A stretch of DNA of 32,831 nt from NCBI GenBank assembly GCA_003157875.1, contig PMKV01000085.1, positions 1-32,831 of the forward strand, written 5' to 3'. The DNA comes from Chloroflexota bacterium (GTDB taxonomy: Bacteria; Chloroflexota; Limnocylindria; Limnocylindrales; CSP1-4). Each line of letters opens with the position of its first letter. Positions within the stretch are counted from its first letter, which is position 1. The notes beneath the pieces were generated by a model that searched no databases, was not told the DNA's origin, and saw only the letters and a list, made by a program, of their open reading frames with translations. A program made the translations under genes and the position numbers. Shown piece after piece: positions 4,548 through 25,728 of the stretch.

Positions 4548-4841
4548 CTAGCGGCTGTTGGCGATCTCCACGAGCACGATCGGCCGACCCGCTTCACCAG
4601 CCTCGAGCCTGGCGACGTACCCAAGTGGCCACAACTCACGGCTGAGGGCTCGATCCATGCCCTCGATCCGGTTGCAGGTCCGCGCTCCTCGGATCAGGGC
4701 GCTTCGGATCATCGGGTCATCGAAGGACGGCACGTCCGATCCAACCCGGACGGCCAGACCCTGGGGACCGGCATGATGCCACGGCACCGCGCCGAGACGG
4801 CGGGTGGCGAGTTCCGGATGGAGTTGAGATAGGAGAGTCAT
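4548..4841 (-). CDS. Small hypothetical protein (97 aa)
   Basis: The product has 97 residues, no membrane segment and no motif I recognise. It ends GRPIVLVEIANSR. Support for coding comes from its position between a stem-loop and an upstream TACAAT box on the minus strand (4872-4877), which would give a leader of about 25 nt. No clear ribosome binding site precedes the ATG. The alternative is that this is a spurious open frame in GC-rich DNA. Confidence 0.45.
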   Translation of the reverse strand: MTLLSQLHPELATRRLGAVPWHHAGPQGLAVRVGSDVPSFDDPMIRSALIRGARTCNRIEGMDRALSRELWPLGYVARLEAGEAGRPIVLVEIANSR

Positions 4842-5005: not shown

Positions 5006-6301
5006 CTACGAAACGCTCAGGGCCTCGCGCATCAGGGCGAAAGCCTGCTCATGCTGGCCGGCCGCGGCAAGCGCATCGGCCCACTCGCGGATCGCTTTTC
5101 GCACGAGGGCGGGGCTGCCGGCCTCTCGAGCCAGTCTGCCGGCACTTTCGTAGGCGGCAAGCGCGCCGGCCGTATCGCCTTGTACCGACCGGACACGGGC
5201 CTGGGTCAGGTAGGCATCGACGCCGGCTTTGGTGTTGTTGGTCCGCTCGGACATCTCGACGGCGCCGGCGGCGGTCGTGGCCGCCTCCTCTACGGCGCCA
5301 CGCGCCAGCGCTATCTGGGCCTGGGTGTCGAGGATGTGGGCGAGAACCCAGTCGTCTCCAAGACGCTCCGCGCCGTTGCGCGCCGAGGCGACCATCTCGT
5401 TTGCGCGAGAGGAGTTCCCAAGGGCCAGGTAAGAAAGCGCCAGGTCGTTCTCGAGAAGCGCGGTCTCGCGTTCGGCCTCGGCACGCCGGAATAGCGCCAG
5501 GCTGGCGATGCCGGTTCGGACGGCTGCTTCGAAGTCGCCTGTCTCGCGATAGCTGAAGGCAAGACCGTACAAGTAGTTCGCCTGGCGCCGATCGTCGAGA
5601 GTGCCGGACAGCGCGCGAACTTCCTCGAGGTAGGCGAGGGCCGCGGCGTGGTTGCCGTCCCGCGATTCGATGGTTGACAACGCCATGACCAGACGGAGGT
5701 GGAAGCTGGGCTCCACCTTCAGGCCGGCGCGAGCTCGGGCGAGGACAGCGTGCAGCAGAGCCTTGGCTTCGGTCGAGTTCTCCATCTGGTACTCGGCGGC
5801 AGCCAGCCAGTACTCAGCCAGAGCCGCATCTCCAGCGCGATCCGCGGCGTGGAAGAGCTCGGCGGCCTCCGCGGCAGCGGCGGCTGCCTCGCGCCCCCTG
5901 CCGCGCCTGACCAGGGCCTCGGCCTTTCCGCTCAGCAAATCGGCCCTGCCGTCGCGCGAGGCCGTCGATTCCAGCAGTTCCTCATACGCCGTGATGGCAT
6001 CGTCCCAACGGCCGCAGGCCAGGGCGAGGTCTGCCTCGAGCCGCGCCCAGGCCGCCGGTTCATCGTTGATCAGCGCGCTGGCCGGGATGCCGAGCCGGTT
6101 CGAGATGAAGTTGAGCGCGGCCATCGACGGTCGACTCAGGCCGTTCTCCAGGGCGCTTATGTAGGCCTTGGTGTAGCGGCCGTCCGCTAGTTGCTGCTGC
6201 GTCAGGCCGGCACCCAAGCGGGCCTTGCGCAGTCGCTGGCCGATCTGATGGGCCAGGGGAGAATCGTCGACTCGGGGACGTGCTTGGCTGACTCTTGGCA
6301 T
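5006..6301 (-). CDS. XRE-family HTH regulator with TPR repeats (RRNPP-like candidate receptor)
   Basis: The protein has 431 residues. Residues 18-74 form an XRE helix-turn-helix (IGQRLRKARLGAGLTQQQLA, then YISALENGLSRPS and NRLGIP). From about residue 80 to the end it is almost wholly TPR-like helical pairs, with recurring patterns such as WDDAITAYEELL, HAAALAYLEEV and EAAVRTGIASLALF. HTH plus TPR is the architecture of RRNPP pheromone receptors (PlcR, NprR, PrgX), which bind a re-imported peptide in the TPR groove, but it also occurs in unrelated regulators. A secreted 40-residue peptide gene is divergent at 6470, which favours the pheromone-receptor reading. There is no usable ribosome binding site before the ATG; a TAGACT box lies 7 nt upstream, suggesting leaderless translation. 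Confidence 0.88.
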   Translation of the reverse strand: MPRVSQARPRVDDSPLAHQIGQRLRKARLGAGLTQQQLADGRYTKAYISALENGLSRPSMAALNFISNRLGIPASALINDEPAAWARLEADLALACGRWDDAITAYEELLESTASRDGRADLLSGKAEALVRRGRGREAAAAAAEAAELFHAADRAGDAALAEYWLAAAEYQMENSTEAKALLHAVLARARAGLKVEPSFHLRLVMALSTIESRDGNHAAALAYLEEVRALSGTLDDRRQANYLYGLAFSYRETGDFEAAVRTGIASLALFRRAEAERETALLENDLALSYLALGNSSRANEMVASARNGAERLGDDWVLAHILDTQAQIALARGAVEEAATTAAGAVEMSERTNNTKAGVDAYLTQARVRSVQGDTAGALAAYESAGRLAREAGSPALVRKAIREWADALAAAGQHEQAFALMREALSVS

Positions 6302-6308
6302 GCTCCGA

Positions 6309-6314
6309 AGTCTA
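6309..6314 (-). promoter_or_regulatory. TAGACT -10-like box for the XRE-TPR gene
   Basis: On the minus strand TAGACT ends seven bases before the ATG at 6301, the position expected for a leaderless transcript. No -35 is recognisable. Confidence 0.4.
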
Positions 6315-6375
6315 CTACCGAGTGCCGCGAGGTAGCGAGGGGTTGGTGCGTCGCGGCGCCAATGTTTACAAATAC

Positions 6376-6404
6376 TTGACCCGCCATAGTGCGGTACCTA
6401 CGAT
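6376..6404 (+). promoter_or_regulatory. Sigma-70-like promoter of the secreted peptide gene
   Basis: TTGACC (6376-6381) and TACGAT (6399-6404) are separated by exactly 17 bp, giving a predicted start near 6411 and a leader of about 60 nt. The spacer contains the palindrome GGTACC and the -10 overlaps CGATCG, either of which could take part in regulator binding. Confidence 0.65.
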
Positions 6405-6469
6405 CGGAGTGCCGAAAGCCGCGCCGGCCCGGACTCTGGGAGGACGCCTCTATGTGAAGGAGTCGTCCA

Positions 6470-6592
6470 ATGTTGTCTCGCCGTATCAGCTTCCGTGCAA
6501 TCGTCCTTTCCTGGATCCTTGGAGTGGTTCTGGCCCTGATCCCGCTGGCGACCGCGCTGGCGGGCGGGGGAGGCAATACCTTTCCCCATTAG
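6470..6592 (+). CDS. Secreted 40-residue peptide, candidate pheromone precursor
   Basis: This short frame begins with ATG seven nt after AAGGAG (6457-6462) and lies behind a 17-bp-spaced promoter. The product opens with a basic stretch (MLSRRISFR). A hydrophobic core of about 19 residues follows (AIVLSWILGVVLALIPLAT), then ALA, a good signal peptidase I site, leaving the predicted tail GGGGNTFPH. Small size, a Sec signal and a short C-terminal tail next to an HTH-TPR gene are the hallmarks of RRNPP pheromone precursors (Phr, SHP and PapR types). The mature form could be the nonapeptide or a shorter end such as NTFPH. That it encodes a secreted peptide is well supported; signalling is inference. 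Confidence 0.8.
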   Translation: MLSRRISFRAIVLSWILGVVLALIPLATALAGGGGNTFPH

Positions 6593-6616
6593 GTGACATC
6601 CGTTTACCGCTAATGG
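6586..6616 (+). repeat. Inverted repeat overlapping the peptide gene stop codon
   Basis: CCATTAG (6586-6592, containing the stop) is repeated inverted as CTAATGG at 6610-6616. It could form a 7-bp stem with a 17-nt loop in the mRNA, or be an operator. There is no T-tract. A second small stem follows at 6624-6640 (CGGCCGA, loop AGG, TCGGCCG). Confidence 0.4.
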
Positions 6617-6803
6617 ATGCGGCCGGCCGAAGGTCGGCCGAGATCTTCAGGACTCATCGTCCGCTCGGATTCCGGGGCGGGGCGGCTTTCGGCAGAGTTC
6701 GCGTGAGGGCCGGAGGGGAGCCGAGCCCGACCATCTCGAGCGCTGGACGCTCACCGCTGCTCCTTCCCAGACCACCTACCCGTGCCGGCAGGTGGGCCGG
6801 CCG

Positions 6804-6840
6804 TTGCCCTCACCTAGATAGTGTAGGATAGTAGTACTAG
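6804..6840 (+). promoter_or_regulatory. AT-rich promoter/operator-like segment upstream of the 6860 gene
   Basis: TTGCCC (6804-6809) is 17 bp from GATAGT (6827-6832). The segment 6814-6840 begins and ends with CTAG and contains repeated TAG triplets and the palindrome TAGTACTA (6832-6839). It stands out sharply from the GC-rich surroundings. Confidence 0.45.
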
Positions 6841-6859
6841 TTTACGAAGACCTACTGGA

Positions 6860-7306
6860 TTGGGTGAGAACGTGTTCTGGACGCGGGCAAGCCGCGCTGC
6901 GCGGCGGCAGAAGGTGCTGGATGAGTTGCTCGGACTCGATCCGGCCGAACGACGCGGCCACCTGGAGGTCGCCGTCGCAGCCGGTGACGTCCGCGCGGAC
7001 GAGGTCGACTCGGCTCTGTTGCTCGTCGGGCGGCTGGATGCGTTGCGGGTCATGACGATCCCGCCCAGCGGCCTTCTACCCGGAGGCGTACTGCCGGTCA
7101 CCGAACACCCATTGCGCGCCCCCGAAGACCTCACGGCGACGGTCCCGGCCGGTCCATCCGTCGACCGTGGGTCGATCGAGAACGATGCGGCCGAGATCTC
7201 GGGACGGCCCGGTGTGATCAACCCCGCTCGCAAGCCGAGGGTCGGCGCTCGGTCATCGCGTCAACGTCGCCTGAAGAATGCGATCGCCGCCCAGCCGAGG
7301 GGCTAG
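6860..7306 (+). CDS. Hypothetical protein (about 148 aa)
   Basis: I do not recognise this protein. Its first 70 residues look helical and charged (RAARRQKVLDELLGLDPAER and EVDSALLLVGRLDAL). The remainder is Pro/Gly-rich and ends in a very basic tail (RKPRVGARSSRQRRLK). No membrane segment or signal peptide is visible. The start is unclear: TTG at 6860 lacks a ribosome binding site and GTG at 6872 has only a poor one. It follows an AT-rich promoter-like segment and lies on the same strand as the secreted peptide gene, 267 bp further on, so it could be a target of that system. This is speculation from position. Confidence 0.5.
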   Translation: MGENVFWTRASRAARRQKVLDELLGLDPAERRGHLEVAVAAGDVRADEVDSALLLVGRLDALRVMTIPPSGLLPGGVLPVTEHPLRAPEDLTATVPAGPSVDRGSIENDAAEISGRPGVINPARKPRVGARSSRQRRLKNAIAAQPRG

Positions 7307-23391: not shown

Positions 23392-25728
23392 CTAGATCAT
23401 CGGCTCCACGAAGACGTAGAGGCCCTGACGGTCCGGGCTGGCTCCGCCCTGGCTCCAGGGGACGTAGTCGGGCGAGAGCTTGTTCACGGGAACATCCGCG
23501 TCGGGTGGACGCGACTTCGGCCACAGCGTCGAAACACGTGGATACCAGACATCCTCGATGCGCACAGTCAGAACCGTGAAGTTGTCGGTGGTGGCGGGAT
23601 CGGCCGTGGCCGTGAACCCCGACATGACCCAGGAGTGCCAGCCTCTCCAGACGAGCAGCCCGCCGGGTCGCTGGGTCAGGCGGATTTGCTTGGCCATGAT
23701 TTGGATCGCGTCGACCAGCTTCGGCTGGGAACTCACCTGGAAGTGACCGTAGCCCAACACCGACAGGCCTTCGGCCCAGCCATCGGGATCCGCTCCCCCC
23801 GCGCTCGCACCGGCGATCGATACGGCCAGATCGTAGAGCCGGGCCTGAGTGTCGCGGGTCACATCGGGCGTGGCGCTCATGATGTTCATCGACGTCTGCA
23901 TGGCCGCGGGAACGCACCAGGTGTCCTTGGATTCGCTCACGAAATCGCCGTCCTGATAGAGGTCCATCGTGAATACTCCAGCGGTGGAAGACGGACCGAG
24001 CGAGGGCGACGCGGCGGCGGATCCGGACGGGCGCGCCGAGGCTGTGCCGGCGGATGCGGAGGGGTCGGCCGAGATCGTGGGAGCGCGGGTGCCGCCGACT
24101 CGCGCCCACGGGGTCGTCACGGGGTCGGCTGCCAGCGATGCGTGGCTCAGGGCCTGAGCGGCGGCAAACGCCGTGCCGCCGGTGAGCGACACCAGGAGGA
24201 TCGCCATCAGCGCGAGCTGGCCCAAAGGCAGCGGCTGGCGGTTGCCCTGCACATCGCCCCAGCGGTCGTGAACGATGGCTCGAGACCATCGGGACGCGCC
24301 GCCGATGCGGGCCATGCGGGGTTTGAGGAAGACCGCCAGGGTCAGTACCCGAACAGCCTGGAAGACGACGTAACCCAGCGGAAGGGCGGCCAATCCGATG
24401 CCGTTCGAGAGGGTCATCGTCGTCAGGATGCCGGCGACGAATCCGGCTGCAACCGACAGCATCGGCTCAGAGGTGTTGTGGGTGGCGTAGATGGCGCGGG
24501 CCAGGATCTCGACGAGGCACTCGAACGGAACGGACAGAGCGTAGATGACGAGCACGAGAGTCATCCGCGAAGCGTCGGTGTCGTCGAAGGCGCCGCCCTT
24601 GAAGAGACCGGAGATGAAGCCGGCCATCACGGCCAGGCCTACCGCCGCGATCGTCGAGAAGAACCCAATGGTCAGCACGTTCGTATAGACGACCTTCTTG
24701 AAGGCCCTCTTGTCGCCCGCGGCGGCCGTCGAAGACAGAATGGGGAAGGCGGCGAGGGCGAAGGAGAGGCCGACGACACTCTCGGCGGTGCTCTGGAAAT
24801 CCTTCGCATAGGCGATCGCGGAGGTCGATCCGGGGGCGAGCGTCGACGCGATCTGATTGAAGTAGAGCAGCAACAACGACAACAGCCCGAAGCTGACCAT
24901 CTTGGGCACCATCAGGACGGCGAACTCGCCCACGCCCTTGGTGCGGAGCGCAAGCGACAGCTTGGGGCGGAAACTGGTCCGGTAGATGCCGACGAGGCGG
25001 ACGGATAGATGACCCACCGCGCCCACCAGGAAGCCGATGGCGGCGCCGTATATGCCGAATATCCCGCCCAGCAGCAGCGCTCCGGCGGCCGTCCCGCAGT
25101 TGAGGGCAAACTCGGCCAACCCATACGACAGGAATCGCCGCTCGGCGATGAGCACCTCGCCGAGCACCAGAGAGGCGGTGATCGCGAGCTGACCAAGGCA
25201 GACGACGCGGATCAGTCCGATGTAGAGGTCGCGCTGGCTGCCCTCGAAGCCCGGCGCGGCGATCGAGGCGATCTGAGGCGCCAGAATGAAGACGAAGGTG
25301 ATCGCCACGGCCATGACGATCAAGGCCGAGGTGAGGATCGTCCGAGCGAACTCCCGGGCCGTCTGCTCGGCCTCTCCCTTGAGGCCCAGGAACAGCGGCA
25401 GGAACGGCCCGATGACCCCGCCTGTGATGAGCACGTCGACGGGGAACTGGGTCAGCTGTGCGGCATTCCAGAAGGCGTCAGTCTCGGGGCCGGCGCCGAA
25501 GACGTGTCCGAGCACCTTCTTCGCCAGAAAGCCCGCCCCGGCGTTCACGATCGAGAGCACGCCCAGGATCACCGCGCCCCTGGGGATGGCTCGCCGGAGG
25601 AGATCCCTGGCTCGTTCTGCCGAACCGCGCCCGTCGCCTGAAGGTGGCTCGTCCTTGTACAGCGCCGCCTCGGCTGCCCCTACCCGGCTCAGCATTCGGC
25701 CGCGCTTCGTGTCATCTACCCAGGGCAA
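23392..25728 (-). CDS. MurJ/MviN-like flippase fused to a C39-like cysteine peptidase domain
   Basis: The protein has 778 residues; MurJ alone is about 500-550. Residues about 50-500 form the MVF/MurJ transporter: AIPRGAVILGVLSIVNAGAG, then VFGAGPETDAFWNAAQL, FLPLFL and PFECLVEILARAIYATHNT. After a final helix (about 520-540) comes an extracytoplasmic Ser/Ala/Pro linker. A domain follows with DTWCVPAAMQTSMNIM (Cys605) and GGLLVWRGWHSWVMSGF (His698), then IEDVWYP. The Cys-Pro-Ala and Gly-Trp-His blocks match peptidase C39-like proteins. TTG at 25728 has GAGGA 8 nt upstream. The first part should flip lipid-linked precursors such as lipid II; the second may cut or bind peptides outside the membrane. 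No break separates them. Confidence 0.88.
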   Translation of the reverse strand: MPWVDDTKRGRMLSRVGAAEAALYKDEPPSGDGRGSAERARDLLRRAIPRGAVILGVLSIVNAGAGFLAKKVLGHVFGAGPETDAFWNAAQLTQFPVDVLITGGVIGPFLPLFLGLKGEAEQTAREFARTILTSALIVMAVAITFVFILAPQIASIAAPGFEGSQRDLYIGLIRVVCLGQLAITASLVLGEVLIAERRFLSYGLAEFALNCGTAAGALLLGGIFGIYGAAIGFLVGAVGHLSVRLVGIYRTSFRPKLSLALRTKGVGEFAVLMVPKMVSFGLLSLLLLYFNQIASTLAPGSTSAIAYAKDFQSTAESVVGLSFALAAFPILSSTAAAGDKRAFKKVVYTNVLTIGFFSTIAAVGLAVMAGFISGLFKGGAFDDTDASRMTLVLVIYALSVPFECLVEILARAIYATHNTSEPMLSVAAGFVAGILTTMTLSNGIGLAALPLGYVVFQAVRVLTLAVFLKPRMARIGGASRWSRAIVHDRWGDVQGNRQPLPLGQLALMAILLVSLTGGTAFAAAQALSHASLAADPVTTPWARVGGTRAPTISADPSASAGTASARPSGSAAASPSLGPSSTAGVFTMDLYQDGDFVSESKDTWCVPAAMQTSMNIMSATPDVTRDTQARLYDLAVSIAGASAGGADPDGWAEGLSVLGYGHFQVSSQPKLVDAIQIMAKQIRLTQRPGGLLVWRGWHSWVMSGFTATADPATTDNFTVLTVRIEDVWYPRVSTLWPKSRPPDADVPVNKLSPDYVPWSQGGASPDRQGLYVFVEPMI

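Follow-up and report, generated by a model that had tools for sequence, protein, structure and literature searches.

The window, that is the whole stretch of DNA analysed here, comprises 32,831 nucleotides of contig PMKV01000085.1 from a Chloroflexota bacterium, whose genome is a MAG of 3.06 Mb that is 75% complete. Between positions 5006 and 6592 a gene for an HTH-TPR regulator and a gene for a small peptide precursor are divergently arranged, and the following features were assigned to them and to their surroundings.

4548..4841, minus strand: unannotated gene of 97 aa downstream of the regulator and on the same strand, kept in 12 same-genus loci
5006..6301, minus strand: HTH-TPR regulator of 431 aa, candidate intracellular peptide receptor (Pfam HTH_3 and TPR_12; AF2 model with pLDDT 91)
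5009..6049, minus strand: nine-repeat TPR superhelix, residues 85-431, candidate peptide-binding groove (AF2 helices, VIA-align)
6068..6250, minus strand: XRE-type HTH DNA-binding domain, residues 18-78 (Pfam)
6302-6469: intergenic gap of 168 bp between the divergent regulator and peptide genes
6309..6314, minus strand: TAGACT, putative -10 of the regulator promoter, 7 nt from the ATG and leaderless-like
6364..6380, plus strand: operator-like 17-mer GTTTACAAATACTTGAC, overlapping the -35 of the peptide gene, conserved in 32 loci
6376..6404, plus strand: sigma-70-type promoter TTGACC-17-TACGAT of the peptide gene, conserved
6457..6462, plus strand: Shine-Dalgarno sequence AAGGAG of the peptide gene, 7 nt 5' of the ATG, conserved
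6470..6592, plus strand: secreted peptide precursor gene of 40 codons (profile matches, dN/dS, conserved position)
6470..6562, plus strand: predicted signal peptide with hydrophobic core and AxA site, putatively cleaved between ATALA and GG
6563..6589, plus strand: candidate mature pheromone GGGGNTFPH, 9 aa, conserved as [GD]Gxxxx[FYIL]P[HRKQ] after the A of the cleavage site

The first-pass annotation of this DNA had described a 431-aa XRE-HTH/TPR regulator separated by 168 bp from a divergent 40-codon gene, together with the TTGACC-17-TACGAT promoter and the AAGGAG 7 nt before the ATG, and these were all recovered where it had placed them; the signal peptide with its ALA site (a prediction) and the tail GGGGNTFPH are likewise present in the translation of 6470-6592. 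The 97-aa gene, for which a Pfam search gave no match, is a possible operon partner of the regulator. Comparison of gene neighbourhoods for an output operon revealed synteny within the genus only and no functional partner kept across the family. Elsewhere in the window, a 778-aa ORF (23392-25728, minus strand) looks by eye like a membrane protein of the MurJ/MviN type, extended at the C-terminus by a region in which a WCVPAA motif is reminiscent, again by eye, of C39 peptidases.

Most regulators of the first related loci were accompanied by a divergent upstream ORF of 39-41 codons encoding a signal peptide and a short tail. A profile HMM built from these first small ORFs was used to search every reading frame, irrespective of its position in the locus, and gave exactly one match in 48 of 68 regulator loci, with the next-best background at E ~0.3. 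The small ORF is thus kept beside homologous regulators, adjoining them in all 48 loci (in some of these, one small HTH gene intervenes), and its product varies from 35 to 61 aa; a class-wide profile search yielded 52 matches in 48 of 177 genomes. When 61 whole genomes of relatives were searched, the full-length precursor matches (E<1e-4) all adjoined a regulator, except in genome G022, where the precursor adjoins only a stand-alone HTH gene at a contig end; the few other matches covered only short parts of long, unrelated ORFs. None of the five same-genus genomes that lack the regulator contained a full-length precursor match at the same threshold. Moreover, within 600 bp upstream of regulators, signal-peptide-like small ORFs preceded by an RBS reach a density of 1.14 per kb, compared with 0.027 per kb elsewhere in the same loci, an enrichment of ~42-fold. 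Over 15 same-genus genomes the peptide gene has a dN/dS of 0.36 (leader 0.34, tail 0.39), and the regulator one of 0.22. The view that the ORF is due to chance, or is a leader without peptide function, found no supporting point and is refuted by this dN/dS of 0.36, by the co-occurrence with the regulator and by the conserved RBS, promoter and C-terminus, so that we give it practically no credence; judged from these sequence comparisons, the small ORF is a real gene.

No adjacent peptide could be recognised in 20 of the 68 regulator loci, about six of which have a contig end less than 400 bp from the regulator start; the other receptors may be eavesdroppers or users of other peptides. A weak class-level peptide match (G090/L169) turned out to belong to a larger ORF and was set aside. 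Some loci of the wider family contain a further gene, for a stand-alone HTH protein (SSI.KH...; e.g., L090:5941-6374 and L100:5905-6213), which separates the peptide gene from that of the HTH-TPR regulator; most of the window genus lacks it.

Homologues of the regulator were found in 35 of the 61 relatives, with 68 loci among genome contigs, and full-length relatives measure ~428-459 aa. All profile matches in named genomes belong to Chloroflexota MAGs, CSP1-4 included, except the bin with locus L055; its contig, with the label Steroidobacteraceae, encodes a regulator and a peptide of Chloroflexota type, and the bin is probably mislabelled. Pfam HTH_3 and HTH_19 matches cover residues 21-79, and TPR_12 (E 2.6e-14) and other TPR matches span the rest of the protein. 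Conservation is higher in the HTH than in the TPR part (entropy 0.98 and 1.67 bits, respectively). The phmmer matches to PlcR and ComR extend over the HTH only (E ~0.004), and an NCBIfam scan gave no match to any Rgg, PlcR, NprR or ComR family model. The best full-length NCBIfam match is the NsdA family of actinobacterial TPR regulators, a weak one well below the cut-off (29.7 bits against 75); to our knowledge, no peptide partner of this family has been described. Likeness to RRNPP receptors by sequence is confined to the HTH, and common descent with them is no more than possible.

The AlphaFold model (pLDDT 91) places nine TPRs behind the HTH. The closest solved structures to the TPR part are APPBP2, Rap-Phr complexes and NprR, followed by APC8, MalT and LGN, and the VIA-align Z values are 29 for Rap-Phr, 28 for NprR, 24.8 for NprR-NprX and 21.6 for AimR; the PlcR-PapR7-DNA structure was matched by Foldseek with E 4e-7. 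The TPR superhelix is accordingly close in fold to the receptors of the Rap-Phr and AimR-AimP systems (Bacillus, phages), of which Rap is without an HTH, although TPR superhelices are generic and APPBP2, APC8 and MalT score about level with Rap against our model. Eight groove-facing residues assigned by TPR numbering (R87, D91, E128, Y164, R203, R252, N285, and R369) are strongly conserved. Along the TPR A-helices, residues that face the groove show somewhat higher conservation than the rest of the surface (Mann-Whitney p 0.03), a difference too weak to count alone. The modelled fold appears compatible with peptide binding without proving it.

In the region 6200-6900, TTGACC-17-TACGAT is the sole promoter-like site, where 0.1 would be expected in shuffled sequences. 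An intergenic alignment of 15 genomes revealed that this promoter, the RBS and an upstream block are all kept, and an AGTnTAC block at the putative -10 of the regulator is conserved in the same number of genomes. Over the -35 of the peptide genes, 32 loci share the 17-bp consensus GTTTAGNAATACTTGAC, an imperfect inverted repeat that is perfect in one locus (L039, GTCAAGT-AGC-ACTTGAC). A strict motif scan of 21 same-genus genomes found almost only the peptide promoter, and the few other matches resemble coding sequence. The simplest reading is that the regulator would bind the 17-bp motif and control its own signal gene. In ComR-ComS and Rgg-SHP of Streptococcus the regulator motif likewise directly adjoins the -35 of the pheromone gene, which points to autoregulation, and the putative operator described here takes the same place. 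Since the motif on the peptide promoter is nearly its sole genomic copy, the regulator may act chiefly on the peptide gene. This same fact speaks for a different role of the pair, in which the peptide is a secreted effector, such as an antimicrobial or structural micro-peptide, and hence the output, while the HTH-TPR protein senses another ligand.

The precursors themselves bear on this question, beginning with the predicted mature part, which at only 7-11 aa is what a recognised signal would predict. As read from sequence, a basic start, a hydrophobic core and an AxA site are kept, and the distance from AxA to the C-terminus is conserved at a near-fixed value. Tails in the 15 same-genus genomes have 8 or 9 residues and end in [FYI]P[HRQ]. 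Across the family their variation is not random: the Pro is invariant and the last residue nearly always H, R or K, while other positions drift, and the end [FYWIL]P[HRK] is kept while leaders diverge. Toxin-antitoxin pairs, too, commonly show a small hydrophobic ORF that diverges from the gene of an XRE regulator, and the layout would fit a toxic peptide repressed by the HTH protein. That the predicted signal peptide is cleavable and followed by a conserved soluble tail, that the partner has a long TPR sensor domain, and that the locus has a conserved promoter and a strong RBS, is stable within the lineage and has no viral-contig relative, all make such a pair highly improbable. We give a little more weight, though still very little, to a precursor that acts inside the cell or in the membrane, before or without export, for instance as a membrane-anchored anti-regulator or a Sec-capacity sensor binding the TPR protein; export and cleavage are predictions, and a short hydrophobic ORF does adjoin an HTH gene, but the conserved AxA motif with its near-fixed distance to the C-terminus, and an orphan precursor that keeps the tail while its leader changes completely, argue against it.

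A signal that is recognised through its tail is further suggested by precursors with repeated or duplicated tails. One precursor (L083) carries tandem tail copies, DLAGAPWPK...DLAGAPWPR, in different codons with synonymous changes, and its relatives L057 and L092 have long pro-regions, yet end in MPWP[RK]. Tandem pheromone copies in one precursor are a known RRNPPA trait (PMC9765709, PMC11343458). Seven genomes of genus g41 (family f4, of the same class) encode a second precursor with no regulator nearby, and its leader is only ~30% identical to that of the regulator-linked precursor. Linked and unlinked precursors nevertheless share the same 8-residue tail core in five of the seven: VTGGGDFP in G163 and G165, ASGGADFP in G166, VTGGADWP in G167 and STGGGDFP in G171; the tails differ at one position in G169 and at two in G170. 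The match within pairs is significant by permutation (p=0.0008), with 0.08% of all 5040 partner reassignments fitting as well, and the distances of the two genes across g41 correlate for tails (0.79) and not for leaders (-0.06). Recent gene conversion is an unlikely cause, since the codons of linked and unlinked precursors differ. Of all the results, the matching tails of unlinked precursors argue most strongly that something reads the tail itself and, taken with the tandem copy, they are the best evidence for the tail as a signal. In the promoters of the unlinked precursor genes (L161, L191-L196), ~60-120 bp upstream, we noticed two or three direct repeats resembling GGTAAGCnGC with an ~11-bp period, in a layout similar to Pho-box-type response-regulator sites.

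The g41 genomes also encode two receptors whose peptides differ in their tails, GG[GA]D[FW]P for one and DGQPP[FI]PR for the other. The second receptor-peptide system of family f4 (L162, L163, and L164) has a convergent gene order and the DGQPP[FI]PR tails, and one cell thus has two channels. Paralogue-specific tails in two-system genomes, the tandem duplication, the same-genome unlinked precursors with matching tail variants and the difference in tail classes between receptor clades are all as predicted for a recognised signal, and they render the effector role of the peptide unlikely, even if it is the most serious of the alternatives considered. Statistical coupling of tail and receptor is uninformative: the partial correlation of tail with TPR similarity (r 0.15, partial Mantel) equals the HTH value, shared ancestry not being separable, and mutual information with the last tail residue (H versus R/K) is no larger for the TPR part than for the HTH.

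Distant homologues of the regulator were found across Chloroflexota. About half of 40 distant loci have an adjoining short secreted peptide and about half no recognisable small ORF. The tail class is consistent within each receptor clade or family, three further families being represented, and each distant class rests on two to six loci. Peptides of family f19 are divergent, 26-27 aa long and end, e.g., in ADTLPGPR or ADSFPCGK; those of f22 lie upstream on the same strand as the regulator and end, e.g., in ADNGPGCC or ADGWPPHI; those of f3 lie upstream, ending, e.g., in ACDPTDTGGLC, or downstream, ending in GGPPICC. One genome (G394) has two regulator-peptide pairs with different tails (L223, L231). 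In six loci (L243, L244, L246, L247, L249, and L250) two cysteines bracket the predicted mature part, e.g., CDPTDTGGLC, and such peptides could be disulfide-cyclised; in L245 and L248, secreted peptides ending in GGPPICC or GSPPLCC are encoded just downstream of the regulator stop. These distant pairs, at two to six loci per class, extend the finding beyond a single family to the level of the phylum and give four candidate peptide classes: x-P-basic 9-mers, D-x-x-P-G-x-basic 7-mers, CC- or HI-ended 6-8-mers and Cys-bracketed 9-10-mers. On balance, and with considerable reserve, we lean towards a phylum-wide, diversified pheromone language in Chloroflexota, in which one HTH-TPR superfamily would read at least four peptide classes, with second emitters and two-channel genomes, as a deep relative of RRNPP or an independently evolved system.

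RRNPP_detector looks for a propeptide of 10-100 aa secreted by Sec/SPI and a receptor of 250-500 aa with a TPR match, encoded as direct neighbours (PMC10075063). The present pair has a propeptide of 40 aa, a receptor of 431 aa with a TPR_12 match, and adjacency; secretion was judged by the basic start, hydrophobic core and AxA site, and the model shows a Rap/NprR/PlcR-like TPR fold, though other TPR proteins score alike. As in PlcR-PapR and NprR-NprX of the Bacillus cereus group, an HTH is followed by a TPR array, whose model matches NprR (Z 28) and PlcR, and an adjoining short precursor is Sec-exported and has its signal at the C-terminus, which is predicted here. Unlike these systems, ours has a Chloroflexota host, no sequence family match outside the HTH, a 9-mer tail ending in x-P-[HRK], a usually divergent peptide gene and, in many loci of the wider family, an intervening stand-alone HTH gene. 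SHP precursors are exported by PptAB and are not recognised as Sec substrates (PMC10075063), whereas the precursor described here has a standard signal peptide with an AxA site. Multi-copy precursors are shared with Rap-Phr and AimR-AimP (PMC9765709, PMC11343458); unlike in those systems, a search of viral contigs found no relative of the Chloroflexota receptor. Reception of peptide pheromones inside the cell is described for Firmicutes with their phages and plasmids. RRNPP surveys treat Firmicutes and their mobile elements (PMC10075063, PMC9765709, PMC12700828), and our literature search found no report of such peptide-pheromone systems in Chloroflexota, for which an RRNPP-like intracellular peptide-pheromone system would be new.

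We consider it likely that the regulator and the peptide form a peptide-pheromone system working like RRNPP. The 40-aa precursor would leave the cell by the Sec route and be cleaved behind ALA by signal peptidase I, and the resulting 9-mer GGGGNTFPH would accumulate outside the cell and re-enter through an oligopeptide permease. Such a circuit needs oligopeptide-binding proteins and signal peptidases, and the genome encodes both: six peptide-binding proteins of the SBP_bac_5 type, and signal peptidases I. Inside the cell, as fold and precedent suggest, GGGGNTFPH would bind the TPR superhelix and thereby alter how the HTH engages the 17-bp motif that overlaps the peptide gene's -35, a motif that the regulator presumably recognises; the outcome may be autoregulation as in ComR/ComS or PlcR/PapR, in either sign. 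All evidence was computed from MAGs, and the computation establishes the pairing, the coding constraint, the tail-specific conservation, the unlinked tail matches, the promoter and motif, and the Rap/NprR-like fold. The first-pass proposal that the pair is a module for peptide signalling outside Firmicutes gains support from the conserved pairing, the non-random tail, the unlinked-tail matches and the modelled Rap/NprR-like TPR part.

If this holds true, an abundant and mostly uncultured phylum of soil and freshwater would talk with defined short peptides, and its signal sequences could be read from genomes and synthesised, so that density-dependent behaviour would become directly testable. 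It also raises the question whether RRNPP-type reception is older than Firmicutes or has arisen twice.
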